From contig VFJO01000042.1 of the NCBI GenBank assembly GCA_009886045.1, forward strand, positions 1-50,484: a stretch of 50,484 nt of DNA, in the 5' to 3' direction. The notes beneath the pieces are model-generated. The model did no database searches and had not been told where the DNA came from. It worked only from the letters and a program-made list of their open reading frames with translations. Both the position numbers and the translations under genes were made by a program. The DNA is from Verrucomicrobiota bacterium (lineage in GTDB: Bacteria > Verrucomicrobiota > Verrucomicrobiia > Chthoniobacterales > Terrimicrobiaceae). Of this stretch, positions 40,357-48,489 are shown piece after piece (the first letter of the stretch is position 1; every line of letters starts with the position of its first letter).

Positions 40357-41979
40357 TCAACCTCGCGCTGCCGTTTGCTTGATCCGCAGCAAAGCCTGCA
40401 CCATCCCCTCGGCGGGTTTGGAAAACTCCAGCCCGCTGCCTTCCGGGCAGCCATCAGCAATCCGTGCGCGCACGCTCGACAGGCCTACATTGTCTTTCCA
40501 GGCGGAGGGGTCTGTTTTTGGCGGCGCTGTATTACTGAGGTAAACAACTAGATCGCCAGCTTCCATGCGCGCATTGAGTTCCACCCTGCCAAAGCCATCA
40601 TCCACTCCATGCTTCACCGCGTTTTCCACGAGTGGTTGCAGCAGCATCGGCGGCAACAAAAATCCACCGGTATCGGCATCTGCACTGACGCTCCATTCCA
40701 GGCCTTCTTCGTAGCGCATTTTCTCCAAACGCAGAGTCTCGCGAATGATGTCCAGTTCCTCGGAAAACGGAATCAGCGCTTTCTTGGACAAGTCCAATGT
40801 TTTCCTCAAAAGCTGTGCCAGTGCGGTAACGCCGTCTTGGGCAGCGTCCCTGTCCGAGCAGATCAGGCCATGGATCGCATTGAGGCAATTGAAGAGAAAA
40901 TGCGGATTCACCTGGGCCTTGAGGCGCTCCAATTCCGCGGTCTTCTGTGCTGCCACAGCCTGCAGCACTTTCTCGCGCCGCTGGGACTCCGCGCCTGCCG
41001 CAATGAGGAGGCCCGTGGTGGCAACAATCGCGATGAATGCCTCGATTTGCCAGATCGTGCCAACCATGGAGCTCGAAACAAACGGCCCGCTGCCATGGCT
41101 CGTGAAGGCTGCGGCCGTGAAGACGATGAGAAGCACAGAGAGCGCGGCAGCAGGCAGCCCCCGACTCAGCGCGACCCAGACCAAAAAGGGAAAAGGCAAA
41201 TACGCCAGCGCCTGCATCGAGGCCGTTGCAGAGGGCTTCCCGTAAAAAGCCAACCACGCCGCGAGAAAGACGCAGGCCAGTTGGACGAGGCTCGCCGCCA
41301 CATCATGAAACCGCGTCGCCTTGGGCCAAAACCGCCCGCTCGCCATCAGCAAAACCACCGGTGCCACGACGACTGTTCCCGCTGTGTTCGTCGCCCAGTA
41401 GATACTCGCCACAGACCACAGGCCCACCGGCGGCATCATGCCGGAAATCACAAGGCAGCCCGCGCTCCAAAGCCCTGCCGCGCCCATGGGAATCGCCGCG
41501 CCGAGCCCCGCGAGCAGGAGCACATCCCGCGTCGATGAGAGCCGGATATCAAACCGCGACCTCGCCAGTAGAGCAACGCCTGCCCCCACGGCCACTGTCA
41601 TTCCCGCCGGAGCCAGAATTGTGAAGATCCACGGATTCCCAGCTCCAAGGCTGCTGAAAAAAAGCGGCAGAAAAATTCCCGGCAACACCTGCAGACCGAG
41701 CAGCAGAGCGAACGCCAGCGCCACACCGCCCGCTGGCCAAATCGGAGAAAACACCGCGTCGGCGTTTCCAAAAAGCTTCGCCGATCCCATGGCCGTCAAA
41801 TAAACCGCCGCCGCAACAGTCGCGTTCACCAAAATGACTTTGCCTACTTGCCTCAGTGGGGAAATGGCTGACACGCCGGATTGGTTAACCTCTTGCTCTG
41901 GCCATTGCAAATCCTCTTCGTTCACCATCGCCCCGTTGCTGCATCCCGTCGGAGTCGCAAAGCGCGCAGGTGGATTCAT
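40357..41979 (-). CDS. LytS-type sensor histidine kinase with N-terminal MASE1-like membrane domain
   Basis: 8-9 TM N-terminus (IWPAGGVALAFALLLG); LKAQVNPHFLFNCLNAIHGLI; LLQPLVENAVKHGV; NVGLSSVRARI. Confidence 0.9.
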   Translation of the reverse strand: MNPPARFATPTGCSNGAMVNEEDLQWPEQEVNQSGVSAISPLRQVGKVILVNATVAAAVYLTAMGSAKLFGNADAVFSPIWPAGGVALAFALLLGLQVLPGIFLPLFFSSLGAGNPWIFTILAPAGMTVAVGAGVALLARSRFDIRLSSTRDVLLLAGLGAAIPMGAAGLWSAGCLVISGMMPPVGLWSVASIYWATNTAGTVVVAPVVLLMASGRFWPKATRFHDVAASLVQLACVFLAAWLAFYGKPSATASMQALAYLPFPFLVWVALSRGLPAAALSVLLIVFTAAAFTSHGSGPFVSSSMVGTIWQIEAFIAIVATTGLLIAAGAESQRREKVLQAVAAQKTAELERLKAQVNPHFLFNCLNAIHGLICSDRDAAQDGVTALAQLLRKTLDLSKKALIPFSEELDIIRETLRLEKMRYEEGLEWSVSADADTGGFLLPPMLLQPLVENAVKHGVDDGFGRVELNARMEAGDLVVYLSNTAPPKTDPSAWKDNVGLSSVRARIADGCPEGSGLEFSKPAEGMVQALLRIKQTAARG

Positions 41980-42030
41980 ACTTCCTCCTTCTTCCTTCTA
42001 ACTTTTCTTTGCCACTCACCCCCACTTTTC

Positions 42031-42067
42031 GACCGCTCGACCAGCCAATTCAACCGCTCGTTGAATT
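42031..42067. promoter_or_regulatory. Predicted LytTR-type binding site B in the divergent kinase / LPP20-like intergenic region
   Basis: gACCGCTCGAccagccaattcaACCGCTCGTtgaatt; same 21-bp spacing as site A. Confidence 0.65.
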
Positions 42068-42111
42068 GCCTGTTTACGCGTAGGGATCGCTCTCATAATT
42101 TCGGCGCTGTT

Positions 42112-43146
42112 ATGAAAACCACCTCTCAACACCGCATCCTCATACCCGTCCTATCTGCTGCATTTGGCCTTCTTTTGCCATCCCTTGTGCAAGCTGCAGT
42201 CAAACCCACCGAAGAATCCGCTCCCAAGCTTCCTGAGATTTGGGTGAAGGCTGGTCCGCGCGAGCGTCTCAAGGCCACACGCGCCGCAGAGCTCGATGCC
42301 GACCGCCTCCTTGCCGAGCGCATCTATGGCCTCGAAGTCGATTCCGAGACCACGATCGCCGATCTCGCTGCAGGCGACGATAAGATCGACAGCGCGGTCT
42401 CTGCCACACTCGTTGGCTCCTTGACGACCGAGCCACCGGAATACCTCGCCGACGGCACTGTCCAAGTCGTCCGCGCCGTCAAAATCCGAGAAGTCATCAA
42501 CACACTCAACACCGCCATCAAAGGCAAGGTCCTCAAGGATGGCTCGGTTCAGACCTTGTCCAACAAGACCAAGACAAACACCGAGGTCAAAGACAGCGTC
42601 ATCGATGTGATGGGCAACGCCGCCCTGCCCGGCTCCGAGGGACACCAGAAAGTCATGGCCAAGCGCGCCGCCGAGCTCGATGCCTACCGCCGCCTGGCCG
42701 CCCGCATGTTGGGCATTCAAATCAACGGCAACACGACTGTCCGAGACATGGCTTTGGAAAATGACGAACTCGTGGCTGGGCTTTCGCATGTGCTCAAAGG
42801 GGCCGCGACCACGGCCATCAAATTCAACAAGGACGACGGATCTTGCGAAGTCACGATGGCGATCAAAACAGCCGATGTTCTCCGCACCGCCAAACGCATT
42901 GTTAAGGGCGAAAAAGTCACCACTACGATCAAAGATTCCATCGAGGAGAAAACCTTCTCCGAAACCGGCCGAGGCGCGATGCGTGAGGTCGCCCAAGGTG
43001 ACGCCCCCACCGAAGCAGCCACAGAGAGCGTTCCTACGAATCAGCCCACTATCGAAGCGGAAGTTAAAATCTCCGGCCGTGATCCATTTTTTGAAACCAC
43101 AGCCATCATCAAGGAAGTCGTCCAGAGCGGACCCGTGGTCCAGTGA
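42112..43146 (+). CDS. LPP20/FlgP-like secreted protein with two repeated domains
   Basis: Signal peptide; RLKATRAAELDADRLLAERIYGLEV and KVMAKRAAELDAYRRLAARMLGIQI repeats. Confidence 0.6.
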   Translation: MKTTSQHRILIPVLSAAFGLLLPSLVQAAVKPTEESAPKLPEIWVKAGPRERLKATRAAELDADRLLAERIYGLEVDSETTIADLAAGDDKIDSAVSATLVGSLTTEPPEYLADGTVQVVRAVKIREVINTLNTAIKGKVLKDGSVQTLSNKTKTNTEVKDSVIDVMGNAALPGSEGHQKVMAKRAAELDAYRRLAARMLGIQINGNTTVRDMALENDELVAGLSHVLKGAATTAIKFNKDDGSCEVTMAIKTADVLRTAKRIVKGEKVTTTIKDSIEEKTFSETGRGAMREVAQGDAPTEAATESVPTNQPTIEAEVKISGRDPFFETTAIIKEVVQSGPVVQ

Positions 43147-43213
43147 AGTAGGAAGTCAGAAGGAGGAAGGAAGAAAACAAGACCGCCAACCGAACCGGCT
43201 CATCACCCTAAAA

Positions 43214-43399
43214 TTAACAAAAGCGTATGGCTTTAGGCATCGATTCGGGAGTGTCAAAAAAATATCCCTTCACAGCGTCCGCTACCGCCTCACGGAGAGA
43301 AACCCAGTCGTCGCCTTGCGTGACGATCGGTTCCGTCAAGCACTCCGCCACAAATCCGCCATCGCTCTCCTGAACGACCTCGAAGATTAAATCAAGCAT
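43214..43399 (-). CDS. Orphan HicB-like antitoxin family protein
   Basis: MLDLIFEVVQESDGGFVAECLTEPIVTQGDDWVSLREAVADAVKGYFFDTPESMPKAIRF. Confidence 0.6.
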   Translation of the reverse strand: MLDLIFEVVQESDGGFVAECLTEPIVTQGDDWVSLREAVADAVKGYFFDTPESMPKAIRFC

Positions 43400-43445
43400 A
43401 ACTTCACTAAAACCTACCAAAACAAAATCGCAAGCCACCATCACC

Positions 43446-43780
43446 ATGAAACTTCGCAATTCACTTCAAACTTCCTACTTCTTACTTCTACCTTTCTTCC
43501 CGCCTGTGCCAGCAGTCAATCTCGCCCCGTGGCAAGTTATTCCTCCGCGCTTCGCTCCTCCGACACCGAATCGAGGCAACTCGCTTCCATGAGCGACGAA
43601 GACGTCGGTGACCAGCCCGCAGGAAGCATTCGGAAGGAAAAAACCGCTGAATCCCAAACCTCGACCAAAAAAGGAAAAATCCAAAAACAAGAGTCCGAAG
43701 TCACCGAGTTGGTCGAAACCGACATTACCACCGTCATCGACACCACCAGCGCACCGACGGCGGATCAGGACGCGAGGTAA
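43446..43780 (+). pseudogene. Apparently frameshifted lipoprotein gene (start/hydrophobic segment in one frame, LPAC lipobox and body in another)
   Basis: Frame 1: MKLRNSLQTSYFLLLPFFPP... stops at ~43590; other frame reads NFLLLTSTFLPACASSQSRPVASYSS and runs on to the stop at 43780. Confidence 0.5.
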
Positions 43781-43818
43781 AGGAAGAAGTATGAAGGAAG
43801 AAGGAAGAAGTATGAAGT

Positions 43819-44166
43819 ATGAAGTCGGCGAATGATGATTTGATTGAGCGGACGAAGCAGTTTGCGCTGCGGGTGATTCGTTTGTTTGTGTCACTCCCCA
43901 AGACGGGCGAGGCACAGGTGCTTGGCAAGCAGCTTTTGCGTTCGGGAACATCCGTCGGAGCCAATTACCGCGAAGCCCATCGCGCACGCAGTAGAGCCGA
44001 GTTTGCCGCCAAATGCGGCGACTCCCTCCGCGAAATCGAAGAATCCGCCTACTGGCTCGAACTCCTCGAGGAAAGCGGCATCGTCCCAGCCACAAAACTC
44101 AAAGACCTCCGCGCCGAAGCCGATGAACTCACCGCCATTTTCGTCACAATCGTGACGAAAAAGTAA
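43819..44166 (+). CDS. Four-helix-bundle protein (23S rRNA intervening-sequence/S23 family type)
   Basis: LLRSGTSVGANYREAHRARSRAEFAAKCGDSLREIEESAYWLELLEESGI. Confidence 0.85.
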   Translation: MKSANDDLIERTKQFALRVIRLFVSLPKTGEAQVLGKQLLRSGTSVGANYREAHRARSRAEFAAKCGDSLREIEESAYWLELLEESGIVPATKLKDLRAEADELTAIFVTIVTKK

Positions 44167-44169
44167 AAA

Positions 44170-44245
44170 GTCAGAGGGATGAGGAAAGTATGAAGTCAGA
44201 AGGATGAGGAAAGTATGAAGTCAGAAGGATGAAGTAAGAAATACC
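44170..44245 (+). repeat. Polypurine tandem repeat, period 25 bp (gtcagaaggatgaggaaagtatgaa), about 3 units
   Basis: Units start at 44170, 44195, 44220. Confidence 0.93.
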
Positions 44246-44272
44246 AAAAACCCGCAAAACTCCCGAATCACC

Positions 44273-45391
44273 ATGAAACCATCACCACACTACCCCCTTC
44301 ATACTTCATACTTCCTACTTCTCACTTTAGTTTCTTCCTTCATACTTCTTACTTCTAACTTCTCCTTGGCGTCCGCCAAGGACGATCCTTTCAAAAAGCT
44401 CGCCAATAAACTCGGCAAGGAAGCGCCTGGTGAGAAGGTCAACATCGCCGTTGGCAGCTTCAACTATGAGAACACCGATCTCCAGTCGCCGTTCTCCTCC
44501 ATGCTCCGCGACGAGTTGGAGATCGCGCTCGGTGAATCCGGGAAATTCAAGGTCGTGACCCGTGACCGCCTGGCCGATCTCCAGATGGAAGGCAAATTCC
44601 AAGGCAAGGGCATCCTGGAGCCAGGAACTGGAGTTGAAAAAGTCACCATCGAAGGCGTGAAGGGCATCATCCGTGGGGGCTTCTGCGCCAGCGGCGACGA
44701 GGTCACCGTCTACGCCGAGTTGGCGTGGCTTGAAGGTGGCGAGATTAAGAAAGCCCGCATCGTCATCCCGGCTTCCCAAGTGCGCGCAAAAATCTGGCCA
44801 GATCCAGCCGATGCGGCAGCCCGGCCCATCGATGGCGTCATTAATCCCCAGAATGTCGAGCAAAGCCTCGCCAATGTGCAGGAGATCGCCAGAGACCGCC
44901 TCGCCAAAGTGCCGAGGGATTTTCCCATCGAGATTTTTACCGTGGACGGTCGCCGCGCCTATCCTGAAAAAGAAACCCTCTCGTTTCGCGTCCGCAGCGC
45001 GCGCGAGTGCCACATTGCCGTTCTCTGCCACCAGAGCGACGGCACCACCGTCGTCCTCTTTCCAAACCGCTTCTCAAGAAACACCCTCATTCCTGCGAAC
45101 AAAGCCATCGACATCCCAGGCACGCACAAGAGCGGATTCGAGATCGAGATCGGCCCGCCCTACGGCTCCGATGTCGTCGAGGTTATCGCCTGCTCCCAAC
45201 CCAGCGAACTCCACAAGGCGCTATCCAAATACGCCTCCGAAACAAGCGCCCCCGCTCCCTTCCAAGTCCTCACCCGAGGCATGGCTGTGAAAGGCATCGA
45301 CTCCGCCCTCGCCGCTGCCAAAGTCGGCTCCACCGCCGCCCTGCTTTGGTCCCAAGACTCCATCGTCATCAGCACCTTTCCGAAGCCATAA
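44273..45391 (+). CDS. CsgG/FlgO-like N-terminal domain plus C-terminal DUF4384-like domain, secreted
   Basis: KVNIAVGSFNYENTDLQSPFSSMLRDELEIALGESGKFKVVTRDRLADL; LSFRVRSARECHIAVLCHQSDGTTVVLFPNRFSRNTLIPANKAIDIP. Confidence 0.75.
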   Translation: MKPSPHYPLHTSYFLLLTLVSSFILLTSNFSLASAKDDPFKKLANKLGKEAPGEKVNIAVGSFNYENTDLQSPFSSMLRDELEIALGESGKFKVVTRDRLADLQMEGKFQGKGILEPGTGVEKVTIEGVKGIIRGGFCASGDEVTVYAELAWLEGGEIKKARIVIPASQVRAKIWPDPADAAARPIDGVINPQNVEQSLANVQEIARDRLAKVPRDFPIEIFTVDGRRAYPEKETLSFRVRSARECHIAVLCHQSDGTTVVLFPNRFSRNTLIPANKAIDIPGTHKSGFEIEIGPPYGSDVVEVIACSQPSELHKALSKYASETSAPAPFQVLTRGMAVKGIDSALAAAKVGSTAALLWSQDSIVISTFPKP

Positions 45392-45426
45392 AAACCTCTT
45401 CCTTTTTCCTTCTAACTTTACTCACC

Positions 45427-45708
45427 GTGTCATCCATCATCCTCTTTGAAGAAAAAACAGTCCGCCGCGCTTGGGATGCCGAGAATCAGAAATGGCTCTT
45501 CGCCATTGTTGATGTCTTGGCAATTCTCACGGGAAGCATTGATCCCGGTGCGTATTGGAGAAAGCTCAAAGAGCGACTGAAAAAAGAAGGCAACCAAACC
45601 GTGACAAACTGTCACGCCTTGAAAATGACTGCTGCTGACGGCAAGCACTGCACTCAACCCCGCTTAGGAATGAGAAATCGAGTTTATCAAGTTTATCATG
45701 AAAAATAA
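45427..45708 (+). pseudogene. Truncated BRO-N-domain protein remnant
   Basis: LFEEKTVRRAWDAENQKWLFAIVDVLAILTGSIDPGAYWRKLKERLKKEGNQTVTNCHALKMTAADGK matches the BRO-N start; then unrelated tail CTQPRLGMRNRVYQVYHEK. Confidence 0.6.
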
Positions 45709-46888
45709 TTCCTCGCGGCAACCGGCTATTGTCGGCCAGAGCGTCCTTACATCCCAGGAATACCGCGATTTTATCGCCGATCTAAAGTCTCGTATCCAGT
45801 CCGCGCGGATTTCAGCGGCCCGCGCGCTGAATTCCGAGGCCATTCTTCTCTACTGGGATATTGGCCAAGGCATCGTAGAAAGGCAGCGCTCGCTCGCTTG
45901 GGGAGAGTCGGTAGTCGAGTTGGTCTCGGCCGACCTTCGCCGGGAATTTCCTCAAGCCACCGGCTTCTCGGCAAGGAGTGTCTGGGACATGCGAAGATTC
46001 TATCTTTTCTACACCGACGCACATTTTCTGGATGAAGCCGCTCGGGAAATTTCCAAGATTCTCAAAAATCCCGGTCTGCGGCAGCTTGTCGCAGAAATCC
46101 CGAATCCACCCCGGCAGATTGCGTCCTCCGATGCTGCCATTACATTTCTGCGACGACTCGTCGCAGAAATTCCTTGGGGCCAAAACTTGGTTATCCTCAA
46201 CAAGGTGCCCACGCCCCTCGCGAGTCTTTGGTATCTTCAAGCCACAGCCCGCTTCGGATGGACTCGAAATGTTTTGCTCAACCAGATCAAGGCCGGCGCT
46301 TACGAACGCGCGGTCGCCGATAAAAAGTCCCACAACTTCGGCCTCTCCCTCCCCGCACACCTCGCCGAGCAGGCTGAGGAAATGCTCAAGAGTTCCTACA
46401 ACCTCGAGTTCCTCGGAATCCGCCGCGCCGTGAAGGAACGCGAACTGGAAGACCGCTTGATCTCGCGCCTCCAAGCCTTCCTCATGGAATTAGGCTACGG
46501 CTTCTGCTTCGTAGGTCGCCAATACCGCATCGCAGTCGGCAAGAAAGAATACTTCATCGACCTCCTCTTTTACCACCGGTTCCTCAAAGCTCTCGTTGCA
46601 TTCGACTTGAAGGTCGGCCCTTTCGAGCCCGAATTCGCCGGAAAGATGGATTTTTACCTCACCATCCTCGATGAAAAAGAGCGCGCCCCCTGTGACCAAC
46701 CCTCAATCGGAATTATCCTCTGTGCCGAGAAAGACGACATCGAAGTCGAGTATGCCCTCCGCACCAAGTCCAATGCCATCGGCGTGGCCACCTACGAACT
46801 CCAGTCGAAACTCCCAGGAGAATTCAAAGGAAAACTCCCCACGCAGAAACAACTCGCCGACCTCGTCCGCGCGGAATATCGAAATTGA
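45698..46888 (+). CDS. YhcG/DUF1016-family PDDEXK nuclease
   Basis: ILLYWDIGQGIVERQ, FSARSVWDMRRFY, FIDLLFYHRFLKALVAFDLKVGPFEPEFAGKMDFYL, PSIGIILCAEKDDIEVEYAL. Confidence 0.92.
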   Translation: MKNNSSRQPAIVGQSVLTSQEYRDFIADLKSRIQSARISAARALNSEAILLYWDIGQGIVERQRSLAWGESVVELVSADLRREFPQATGFSARSVWDMRRFYLFYTDAHFLDEAAREISKILKNPGLRQLVAEIPNPPRQIASSDAAITFLRRLVAEIPWGQNLVILNKVPTPLASLWYLQATARFGWTRNVLLNQIKAGAYERAVADKKSHNFGLSLPAHLAEQAEEMLKSSYNLEFLGIRRAVKERELEDRLISRLQAFLMELGYGFCFVGRQYRIAVGKKEYFIDLLFYHRFLKALVAFDLKVGPFEPEFAGKMDFYLTILDEKERAPCDQPSIGIILCAEKDDIEVEYALRTKSNAIGVATYELQSKLPGEFKGKLPTQKQLADLVRAEYRN

Positions 46889-46908
46889 AGCAATCCAAAA
46901 AAATCAAG

Positions 46909-48489
46909 ATGTTCGCAATAAATAACTTCTTCCTTCTGACTTTTTCCTTCCTTTTCTCCGCCGCTCTCCACGCCTCGCCGCCGAAGGAGGCTCTGTTAAT
47001 TGCGAACGGGAAATACTCGCACTTCGCGGGCTTAGCGCACCCAAGCCCTGATGCAGCAAAGTTAAGCGCGGCACTGGAGCAACTCGGCTTCCGCGTGCGC
47101 GTGGTGCGCGATGGGAACCGCGAGCAGATGATCGACGCCATCGCAGAGTTTGAGCGCGGGCTACGCAATACCGACGCGATTGCATTTTTTCACTACGGGG
47201 GACACGGCGTTCAAGTGGATGGCAAAAACTATCTTCTTCCGGCGGATGCCGACATTCCCGACGAGCGGCGAGTCGCCACGCGGGCTGTGGCGCTCGATGA
47301 AGTGATGACGGCGATGGATGCCGCCGCAGCGCGGGCGAGCATTATTGTGATCGATGCGTGCCGCGACAACCCGCTGCCTGCCGGAAGCGGTCGCAATCTC
47401 GCGCGTGGTCTCTCGGTGGTGGGAATGAAGCCAAAAAATTCCATCGTCATCTACGCGGCGGAAGCAGGAAGCAAGGCGCTGGATGGGCTTTTCACGCCGA
47501 TTTTGGCCGTGGCTCTGCAACAAAAAGGACGGACGATCGACCAAGTGATGAAAATCGTGCGCAGCGAGGTGTATGCGAAGTCGAGCGGCCAGCAGACGCC
47601 TGGGGAATACAATCAGCTGTTTGAGGAGTTGATCTTGGGTGAATTGGCAGGAGTGGATTTAACGCCAGAGACGGCCTTTGCGGCGAAGCCAGCTGGGACT
47701 CCGTATGCCGCGCCAACTTCCGCTTCGCTCACGACGGACGACATGGTGCTTGTGGAGGGTGGCACGCTGCCGGATGAGTCGGATTTAGCAGGGAAGTCGG
47801 TCCAGTCATTCTACATCGGCCGCACGGAGGTGACATGGCTGGAGTGGAAGAAAGTGAAAAATTGGGCGGCAGACAACGGCTATGACATCGGGAATGTAGG
47901 CGAGGGCAGCGGGAACGTTCATCCGGTGCAAAATGTAAATTGGTATGATTGCGTGAAGTGGTGTAATGCGCGGAGTGAGTTGGCAGGATTGACGCCAGTC
48001 TACCAAGTCAAGGGCAAGGTGTATAGGAGCGGAGAGTATGGAGATATGGGTTCGGGCGTGGTAATGCCAATTTCAAGCGCGAACGGATATCGACTGCCGA
48101 GCCAGACAGAATGGGAGTGGGCCGCGCGAGGTGGAGTAGAAAGCCGTGGATACAAGTATAGCGGGAGCGATGATCTGAATGCGGTGGCGTGGTATAGTTT
48201 GAACTCAAGTGGAGCAGAAGTGGAATTGGGAAGCAGGGTATCAAAGAATTTGTTCGGTGGCGGGACATTTCCGGTTGCACAAAAAGGAAGAAACGAACTC
48301 GATCTGCGAGACATGAGCGGGAATGTTTGGGAGTGGTGTTGGGACAGCAATGGTCCCAACCGCCACGTCCGCGGGGGCAGTTGGAACTTTCATGCGAACT
48401 ACTGCACTGTTGCTTACAGATACGACAGCCACTCCCCAGACGCTCGTAACTACTACATCGGCTTCCGTCTGGCCCGAAATCTGAATTAG
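46909..48489 (+). CDS. Secreted caspase-like (C14) peptidase fused to formylglycine-generating-enzyme (SUMF1/FGE-sulfatase) domain
   Basis: Signal peptide; catalytic HYGGHG and DACRDNP; FGE motifs VNWYDCVKWCNARS, YRLPSQTEWEWAARGG, DMSGNVWEWCWD, HVRGGSWN...IGFRLAR. Confidence 0.93.
   Translation: MFAINNFFLLTFSFLFSAALHASPPKEALLIANGKYSHFAGLAHPSPDAAKLSAALEQLGFRVRVVRDGNREQMIDAIAEFERGLRNTDAIAFFHYGGHGVQVDGKNYLLPADADIPDERRVATRAVALDEVMTAMDAAAARASIIVIDACRDNPLPAGSGRNLARGLSVVGMKPKNSIVIYAAEAGSKALDGLFTPILAVALQQKGRTIDQVMKIVRSEVYAKSSGQQTPGEYNQLFEELILGELAGVDLTPETAFAAKPAGTPYAAPTSASLTTDDMVLVEGGTLPDESDLAGKSVQSFYIGRTEVTWLEWKKVKNWAADNGYDIGNVGEGSGNVHPVQNVNWYDCVKWCNARSELAGLTPVYQVKGKVYRSGEYGDMGSGVVMPISSANGYRLPSQTEWEWAARGGVESRGYKYSGSDDLNAVAWYSLNSSGAEVELGSRVSKNLFGGGTFPVAQKGRNELDLRDMSGNVWEWCWDSNGPNRHVRGGSWNFHANYCTVAYRYDSHSPDARNYYIGFRLARNLN

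Follow-up and report, generated by a model that had tools for sequence, protein, structure and literature searches.

What are the repeat tracts that punctuate one operon of a verrucomicrobial genome, and how did they come to lie there? The locus is part of contig VFJO01000042.1, analysed as a stretch of 50,484 nucleotides (the window), in which related tracts accompany LPP20-like, lipoprotein, CsgG/DUF4384 and caspase-FGE genes and the cassette-like genes between them. A reading made from the sequence alone (the sequence-only reading) had taken the tracts for insertion or recombination hot spots, or for the ends of small non-autonomous elements that delivered the cassettes. Our analysis partly supports the mobile-element idea. 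We conclude, with a probability of about 0.7, that the tracts are arms, or what is left of arms, of a small mobile element that carries a single gene, encoding an S23 protein. This element consists of a degenerate heptad array, an S23 open reading frame (ORF) of about 120 codons and an inverted heptad array, and it recurs in about 20 phyla. In the window, it occupies positions 43775..44372 of the forward strand.

A degenerate heptad repeat

Eight tracts lie where the sequence-only reading had placed them, between 41980 and 46960. Their unit, given there as gaagtatgaag / agtcagaaggatgagg, had to be corrected to 7 bp: the tracts are one degenerate tandem repeat in either orientation, with heptads such as GAAGTAT, GAAGGAT, GAAGTCA, GAAGGAG and GAAGGAA. 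Across the whole genome (G000, 3,517,976 bp), (GAAGNNN)2GAAG occurs 21 times at period 7 versus 0-2 times at periods 5, 6, 8, 9 and 10. Mapping also bore out the clustering of the tracts and their rarity in the first 37 kb of the window. Eight of the 20 best GAAG-heptad hits, and 7 of the 12 (GAAGNNN)2+ tracts, fall within one 5-kb stretch of the 3.5-Mb genome, and nothing comparable was found in 1-41.9 kb of the window.

As a genome-wide detector, the GAAG-only model was rejected; heptads differ from element to element, and most of the arrays linked to S23 therefore escaped it. General period-7 autocorrelation was used in its place. This sequence-independent search identified 43 arrays in the genome versus 0-4 for periods 5, 8, 10, 11 and 13, belonging to many heptad families (TGAAACC, TTGGATT, AACATCC, CCAGTTA, AAGTTTT and others). 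Contigs C13, C83, C113, C194, C325 and C340 begin or terminate inside heptad arrays. The arrays therefore probably interrupt the assembly, and their count is probably too low. On contigs C24, C134, C206, C218 and C324, PIN toxin-antitoxin, RhuM-like, DUF1016, KilA-N and AlbA-like genes, labelled by eye from their translations, stand between paired arrays.

Arrays belong to S23 genes across phyla

Five S23 genes of the genome score above the PF05635 cut-off, and one of these contains an internal stop; there are two fragments besides. All five adjoin a period-7 array, each with a different heptad. At the order and phylum level, we scanned S23 flanks in bins of distance from the gene, counting as an array any stretch with at least 20 of 28 period matches. 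Among S23 loci of the same order and phylum, 33/60 and 25/60 flanks had an array no more than 220 bp from the gene; beyond 220 bp, arrays were found in 0-4 of about 60 flanks per bin. Other periods were near zero, except for 14, which is twice 7, and 8, which occurs in some elements. Control genes from the same phylum behaved differently from S23 (33/60 flanks with arrays), as arrays flanked RecA in 0/60, Fic in 0/57 and DUF1016/YhcG in 4/47 cases. A general association with cassette genes was rejected as the main driver on the basis of these controls.

To go beyond the phylum, a tighter S23 alignment was needed, as the broad alignment was too divergent for scanning the genome collection. The resulting profile scan of GTDB species genomes yielded 80 S23 loci from about 20 phyla, including Planctomycetota, Bacillota, Bacteroidota, Acidobacteriota, Proteobacteria, Chloroflexota, the Candidate Phyla Radiation (CPR) and an archaeon. 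Arrays were present close to S23 in 97/157 flanks, compared to 2-8 of about 145 further out. For a larger count of 135 loci, again from about 20 phyla, we accepted period 7 or 8 with at least 19/28 matches within 200 bp. At least one array was found at 121 loci and arrays on both sides at 80, versus 9/117 and 0/117 at control positions 1-1.2 kb from S23. The two arms shared more inverted than direct k-mers at 99 loci, and more direct than inverted at 30. Read on the strand that encodes S23, upstream arms are rich in purines (60%) and in G (32%, versus 13% C). We conclude that the arrays are specific to S23 genes and form the arms of an S23 element that occurs in many phyla.

Arrays of period 8 in place of period 7 were seen at loci L108, L112, L127, L136, L143, L153, L155, L166 and L121, which derive from CPR, Bacteroidales, Nitrospirae and one archaeon. 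An rRNA context was considered as the reason for array-poor S23 loci and rejected, as no rRNA match was found at 17 such loci.

The heptads themselves vary widely (108 different top heptads among 138 S23 loci), and they follow the sequence of the enclosed protein. The similarity of arrays (5-mer cosine) rose from about 0.05 below 50% S23 identity to 0.20 at 60-70%, 0.47 at 70-80% and 0.77 above 80%, and S23 identity predicted heptad similarity both overall and within the cross-phylum set (Mantel p = 0.001). Runs of AGTGGNN heptads were found in 27/104 S23-positive genomes versus 2/47 S23-negative ones (p 0.0008). The heptad published for Xanthomonas, GGGAATC (PMC4692102), provided an independent prediction, which was borne out. 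Among 401 genomes of the gammaproteobacterial class, only one (G591) contains GGGAATC runs, and in this genome and a congener an S23 gene lies inside inverted GGGAATC arrays, between genes that we named accB- and accC-like by eye from the flanks. An S23 gene and its own heptad type travel together.

Empty and filled sites on plasmids

Some conjugative plasmids of cyanobacteria, with flanks about 97% identical, differ in the presence of the S23 unit. It is present in plasmids of Trichormus and Scytonema and absent from Nostoc PCC 7120 beta, N. carneum and N. linckia. In the TrbI operon, the empty site reads AAAAAGTAATTAACAA and the filled site AAAAAGTAAT / AAATCAGAATTCAGGAGTCAG ... S23 ... CTGACTCCTGAGTTCTTCTTT / GTAATTAACAA. 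The empty site has no array, and the 5-bp target GTAAT is duplicated around the element. The S23 unit with its heptad arms arrived here as one block. In a second plasmid operon, AGGTTCTAGGTTATGC became AGGTTCTA / element / TTCTAGTTATGC, with a 5-bp duplication of TTCTA.

Further S23 units split a ribonucleotide reductase pair in N. edaphicum and the cas6-cas4 pair in Anabaena 90. The latter S23 gene, on plasmid pANA02 of Anabaena sp. 90 (L174:1600-1960), follows a long array of AGGTGAC/AGGGAAC heptads, and the split gene pair belongs to a type I-D CRISPR operon. In plasmid pNPUN01 of Nostoc punctiforme, a hairpin of inverted heptads, about 190 bp long and without S23, lies inside an S23 gene near its 3' end (L176:2270-2480), and the uninterrupted form of that gene is found in Calothrix brevissima (L172). 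A second S23-less inverted heptad hairpin occupies a tra intergenic region of N. punctiforme. These hairpins are built like the S23 element and resemble non-autonomous copies of it.

The S23 protein and its hairpin

The S23 gene of the window (43819..44166, forward strand) encodes 115 amino acids and scored 74 bits against PF05635 (cut-off 33.8) and 93 bits against TIGR02436 (cut-off 24). PF05635 was the sole Pfam match of the protein between the arrays, and no RAYT (Y1/HUH) domain was found. An AlphaFold2 model has four helices, with a predicted local distance difference test (pLDDT) value of 95. Its nearest folds are 2rld, the best match, 2gsc and 4dwl, the Avd subunit of the ribonucleoprotein of diversity-generating retroelements (DGRs). 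Template modelling (TM) scores against Avd are about 0.72-0.76 at 12% identity. Homology between PF05635 and Avd has been noted before (PMC10053308). Many pairs of S23 proteins share only about 20% identity, yet the polar residues Q38, R41, S45, N49, E52 and E75 are conserved in 90% or more of 38 proteins (alignment A4).

Two arrays enclose the gene directly. The 5' arm (43775..43838, forward strand; GAAGTAT GAAGGAA ...; score 50.6, also detected by the period-7 search) contains the S23 start codon, and the array immediately 3' of the gene (44157..44243, forward strand), oriented as the 5' arm, has the genome's best score of 61.9. The inverted 3' arm follows at 44285..44368 on the reverse strand (score 59.1). 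When the window element was folded as RNA, the outer arrays paired around the S23 ORF (z -4.3).

The window locus in relatives

The remaining arrays of the window mark borders between genes, as the sequence-only reading had stated, although several of them lie inside gene starts. Read on the reverse strand, they encode the signal peptides of three genes. The inverted 3' arm of the S23 element provides that of CsgG/DUF4384 (HTSYFLLLTLVSSFILLTSNFSLASA), an array at 43451..43499 (reverse strand, score 31.5) that of the lipoprotein (SLQTSYFLLLPFFPAC), and an array at 46925..46959 (reverse strand, score 27.2) that of the caspase-FGE protein (NNFFLLTFSFLFS). The forward strand of arrays provides the start of the S23 gene and, at 41975..42011 (listed on the reverse strand, score 29.2), a Shine-Dalgarno (SD)-like AAGGAGG with the ATG of a histidine kinase. 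Thus, one array strand reads SYFLLLTS in signal peptides, and the other supplies an SD-like sequence plus ATG. Two more arrays lie at the junction of the LPP20-like stop and the hicB-like gene (43144..43175, forward strand, score 31.9) and in the interval between CsgG and the BRO-like remnant (45394..45443, reverse strand, score 23.4). The GAAG tract of the latter was mapped to 45394-45419.

We compared the locus with that of relatives. Genome G010 matches the window in gene order, hicB and S23 included, and in the placement of arrays. Identity is highest for S23 (95.5%), followed by CsgG (87%), LPP20 (75%) and the lipoprotein (49%). The array at the LPP20 stop is retained in G010 (GAAGTAGGAAATTAGAAGGATGAAGG) and absent in G003; that of the caspase-FGE signal peptide is also retained in G010. 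At the histidine kinase start, neither G010 nor G003 has an array. In G003, the order LPP20-lipoprotein-CsgG lacks hicB at this site, S23 and arrays, and the signal peptides of the lipoprotein (MKKAPALTILLCCLLSAC) and of CsgG are of the ordinary kind. G012 has no S23 and an internal fusion of LPP20 and lipoprotein, and retains one array before a heptad-built CsgG signal peptide. An intact repeat copy, expected by the sequence-only reading at each empty site, is therefore not the rule: G003 has none and G012 keeps one.

Downstream of CsgG, an array is kept in G010 and G012 before different genes. The gap between CsgG and FGE holds the BRO-like remnant and YhcG in the window, a longer BRO-like ORF in G012, and Fic-like, toxin-antitoxin-like and other genes (labelled by eye) in G010, where arrays are kept at both edges. 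Because cassettes are swapped among relatives and gene starts are built from heptads, the arrays mark a variable region and were reused. The proposal that repeats deliver or bound cassettes thus stands in so far as cassettes are present, absent or swapped between G003, G012 and G010; most cassettes (YhcG, Fic) are not as a rule linked to heptads. They are more simply seen as passengers between array relics, or as products of recombination between relics.

Proposed mechanism and alternatives

Under the S23-element reading, the arrays of the transcript would form a stem with S23 in the loop, as in the intervening sequences (IVSs) of 23S rRNA. S23, as an Avd homologue, may act in cis, binding this hairpin as RNA or as single-stranded DNA and aiding its insertion, and might also mobilise S23-less hairpins in trans, as RAYTs do for REPINs. 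The 5-bp target duplications would point to a staggered cut. An element of the GAAGTAT type would have entered the window between the lipoprotein and CsgG genes, and further arm copies may have been scattered through the operon, either because S23-less hairpins moved or through recombination. The scattered arms would now bound exchangeable cassettes, and some were probably co-opted to encode signal peptides or to provide translation starts.

Several results weigh against this reading. No array was detected at 14/135 S23 loci, and 30/135 share more direct than inverted k-mers; in the window itself, the arrays next to S23 are direct and only the outermost pair is inverted. The RNA hairpin of the plasmid element (z -1.5) is not clearly more stable than shuffled sequences. 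Derivation of the other window arrays from the S23 element is suggested by sequence type and clustering only. No catalytic domain was recognised in S23. Each 5-bp duplication has about a 1% chance of arising via microhomology, and the duplications come from two sites. Two further empty sites showed indels and no duplication, and a general search of array ends for intrinsic duplications of 5 bp gave no signal (0.48 against a null of 0.48). Target duplication is therefore suggested, not proven.

A version of the S23-element reading invokes an RNA intermediate, with a reverse transcriptase acting in trans and S23 in the role of Avd. This would fit the fold that S23 shares with Avd, including the Avd subunits in the DGR ribonucleoprotein, the PF05635-Avd homology (PMC10053308) and the enrichment of reverse transcriptases among S23-positive genomes (Fisher p 0.002). 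Still, 56/104 S23-positive genomes, several of them complete and S23-rich, had no match to the reverse transcriptase family PF00078, which counts against this version. In the window, there is no reverse transcriptase gene near S23, and the genome has only one partial match (C111). We reject reverse transcription in trans as a general mechanism and consider this version unlikely.

Alternatively, heptad arrays might arise by replication slippage and act as hot spots at which S23 elements and cassettes land or recombine. The array without S23 at the S23 site of G012, the cassettes swapped between conserved arrays at CsgG-FGE, and the arrays that flank PIN, RhuM-like, KilA-N and DUF1016 genes in the same genome are what this would predict. 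However, the empty sites in G003 and in closely related plasmids contain no array to land in, Fic and RecA are never flanked and YhcG rarely, the arrays are mostly inverted around S23, and their sequence tracks that of S23 across phyla. Pre-existing hot spots are thus quite unlikely to be the explanation. Homologous recombination between dispersed arrays might on its own have reshuffled the operon, with S23 as a passenger. It could account for the LPP20-lipoprotein fusion and missing S23 of G012 and for the variable CsgG-FGE segment, yet the arrays are degenerate and about 30-80 bp long, and in plasmids devoid of arrays recombination has no means of creating new sites; we find it improbable. 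The arrays might also be selected at gene starts for translation or transcription control, as SD-like sequences, G-quadruplexes or regulator sites, a role already proposed for the TAACTGA repeats of Beggiatoaceae. Purine-rich upstream strands and the SD plus ATG supplied to two window genes agree with this, as do the TAACTGA heptads directly upstream of start codons in Beggiatoaceae (MacGregor 2015, PMC4679880). Such control leaves unexplained the inverted downstream arrays, the link to S23 only and the presence or absence of whole units, and heptads differ between elements, so that we regard it as very improbable.

Relation to known systems

The closest likeness is to the IVSs of 23S rRNA in Leptospira and Coxiella, in which an S23 ORF stands between terminal inverted repeats. 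Their origin has been called 'unclear', and mobility has been suspected since 1993 (PMC4990558). In both cases, stem-forming inverted repeats enclose an S23 ORF suspected of helping mobility. The elements described here differ in that they lie in intergenic DNA and operons rather than inside the 23S rRNA gene, have arms of degenerate heptad or octad arrays, and leave visible empty sites and duplications. They are best read as free-standing counterparts of the IVSs.

In REPIN-RAYT systems, short inverted hairpins are spread in trans by a dedicated gene that lies between its own repeats. The RAYT protein of this system (PMC3116915) is Y1/HUH transposase-like, whereas S23 has no known catalytic domain and its element ends in tandem heptads. 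DGRs share the Avd fold, but S23 elements have neither template and variable repeats nor an adjacent reverse transcriptase. Compared with DNA transposons and miniature inverted-repeat transposable elements, the 5-bp duplications are seen at two empty sites and not at two others, and the general test gave no signal.

Dispersed heptamers are known from several bacteria. Xanthomonas GGGAATC and Nostoc GGGGA(T/C)T often form inverted pairs (70 and 75 cases; Rehm 2015, PMC4692102). That study found no general association with mobile elements, considered G-quadruplexes and does not mention S23; the same GGGAATC heptad surrounds S23 in the gammaproteobacterial genus described above. The short tandemly repeated repetitive (STRR) sequences of cyanobacteria are likewise tandem heptamers of period 7 in intergenic DNA, described as repeats only and unlike the window heptad in sequence. 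In plasmids of Nostocales, heptads of the GGGAGTA, GGGTGTA, GGGAACA and AGGAGTC types flank S23 genes. Beggiatoaceae TAACTGA forms intergenic arrays upstream of start codons that are patchy across phyla (MacGregor 2015, PMC4679880); it differs in being one fixed heptad, with no S23 link reported. In the open-licence full texts searched, a collection outside which subscription journals and preprints fall, no heptad-S23 link was found.

A wider reading, which we put forward tentatively and at somewhat less than even odds, is that S23 elements are a separate, nearly pan-bacterial kind of mobile DNA with an Avd-like four-helix bundle as their only gene product and private heptad or octad arrays in place of fixed ends, in which S23 recognises its own heptad. 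Most dispersed heptads (STRR, GGGAATC, TAACTGA) would then be S23-less offspring and IVSs copies tolerated in rRNA. STRR heptamers and Xanthomonas GGGAATC would be the same material as S23 arrays, and Beggiatoa TAACTGA perhaps. If true, one answer would serve for three long-unexplained things that the repeat-plus-gene arrangement links: the dispersed heptamers of cyanobacteria, xanthomonads and other bacteria, the function of S23 proteins and the origin of the inserts in 23S rRNA genes. S23 would gain a testable role in the mobility of a hairpin element. In the window operon, signal peptides and start sites have newly arisen out of a repeat.

Further features of the locus

The gene labels of the sequence-only reading held for S23 (four-helix bundle), CsgG/DUF4384 (44273..45391, forward strand; PF14326, PF03783), DUF1016/YhcG nuclease in the variable CsgG-FGE segment (45698..46888, forward strand; PF06250, PF17761) and caspase-FGE. 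No Pfam match was obtained for the HicB-like, LPP20-like and BRO-N labels, and an NCBIfam search gave no match for the HicB-like and LPP20-like ORFs; these three labels stay guesses of the sequence-only reading. An Rfam scan of 41900-47000 was also without match. The LPP20-like gene of the interrupted operon (42112..43146, forward strand) is syntenic in G010, G003 and G011. The antisense HicB-like ORF (43214..43459, reverse strand) is absent at this site in G003; a HicB-like piece recurs by the same genes in G003, G011 and G012, and G010 has two HicB-like copies 4 kb apart (L051 8241-8423, 11995-12168). A second, partial FGE match lies right behind the caspase-FGE gene of G010 (L051:1299-3569). 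The CsgG N-termini of G012 (C40) and G011 (L053, L055) contain a different inserted stretch (LCASFDSLAPARL...), apparently another repeat taken into a signal peptide.

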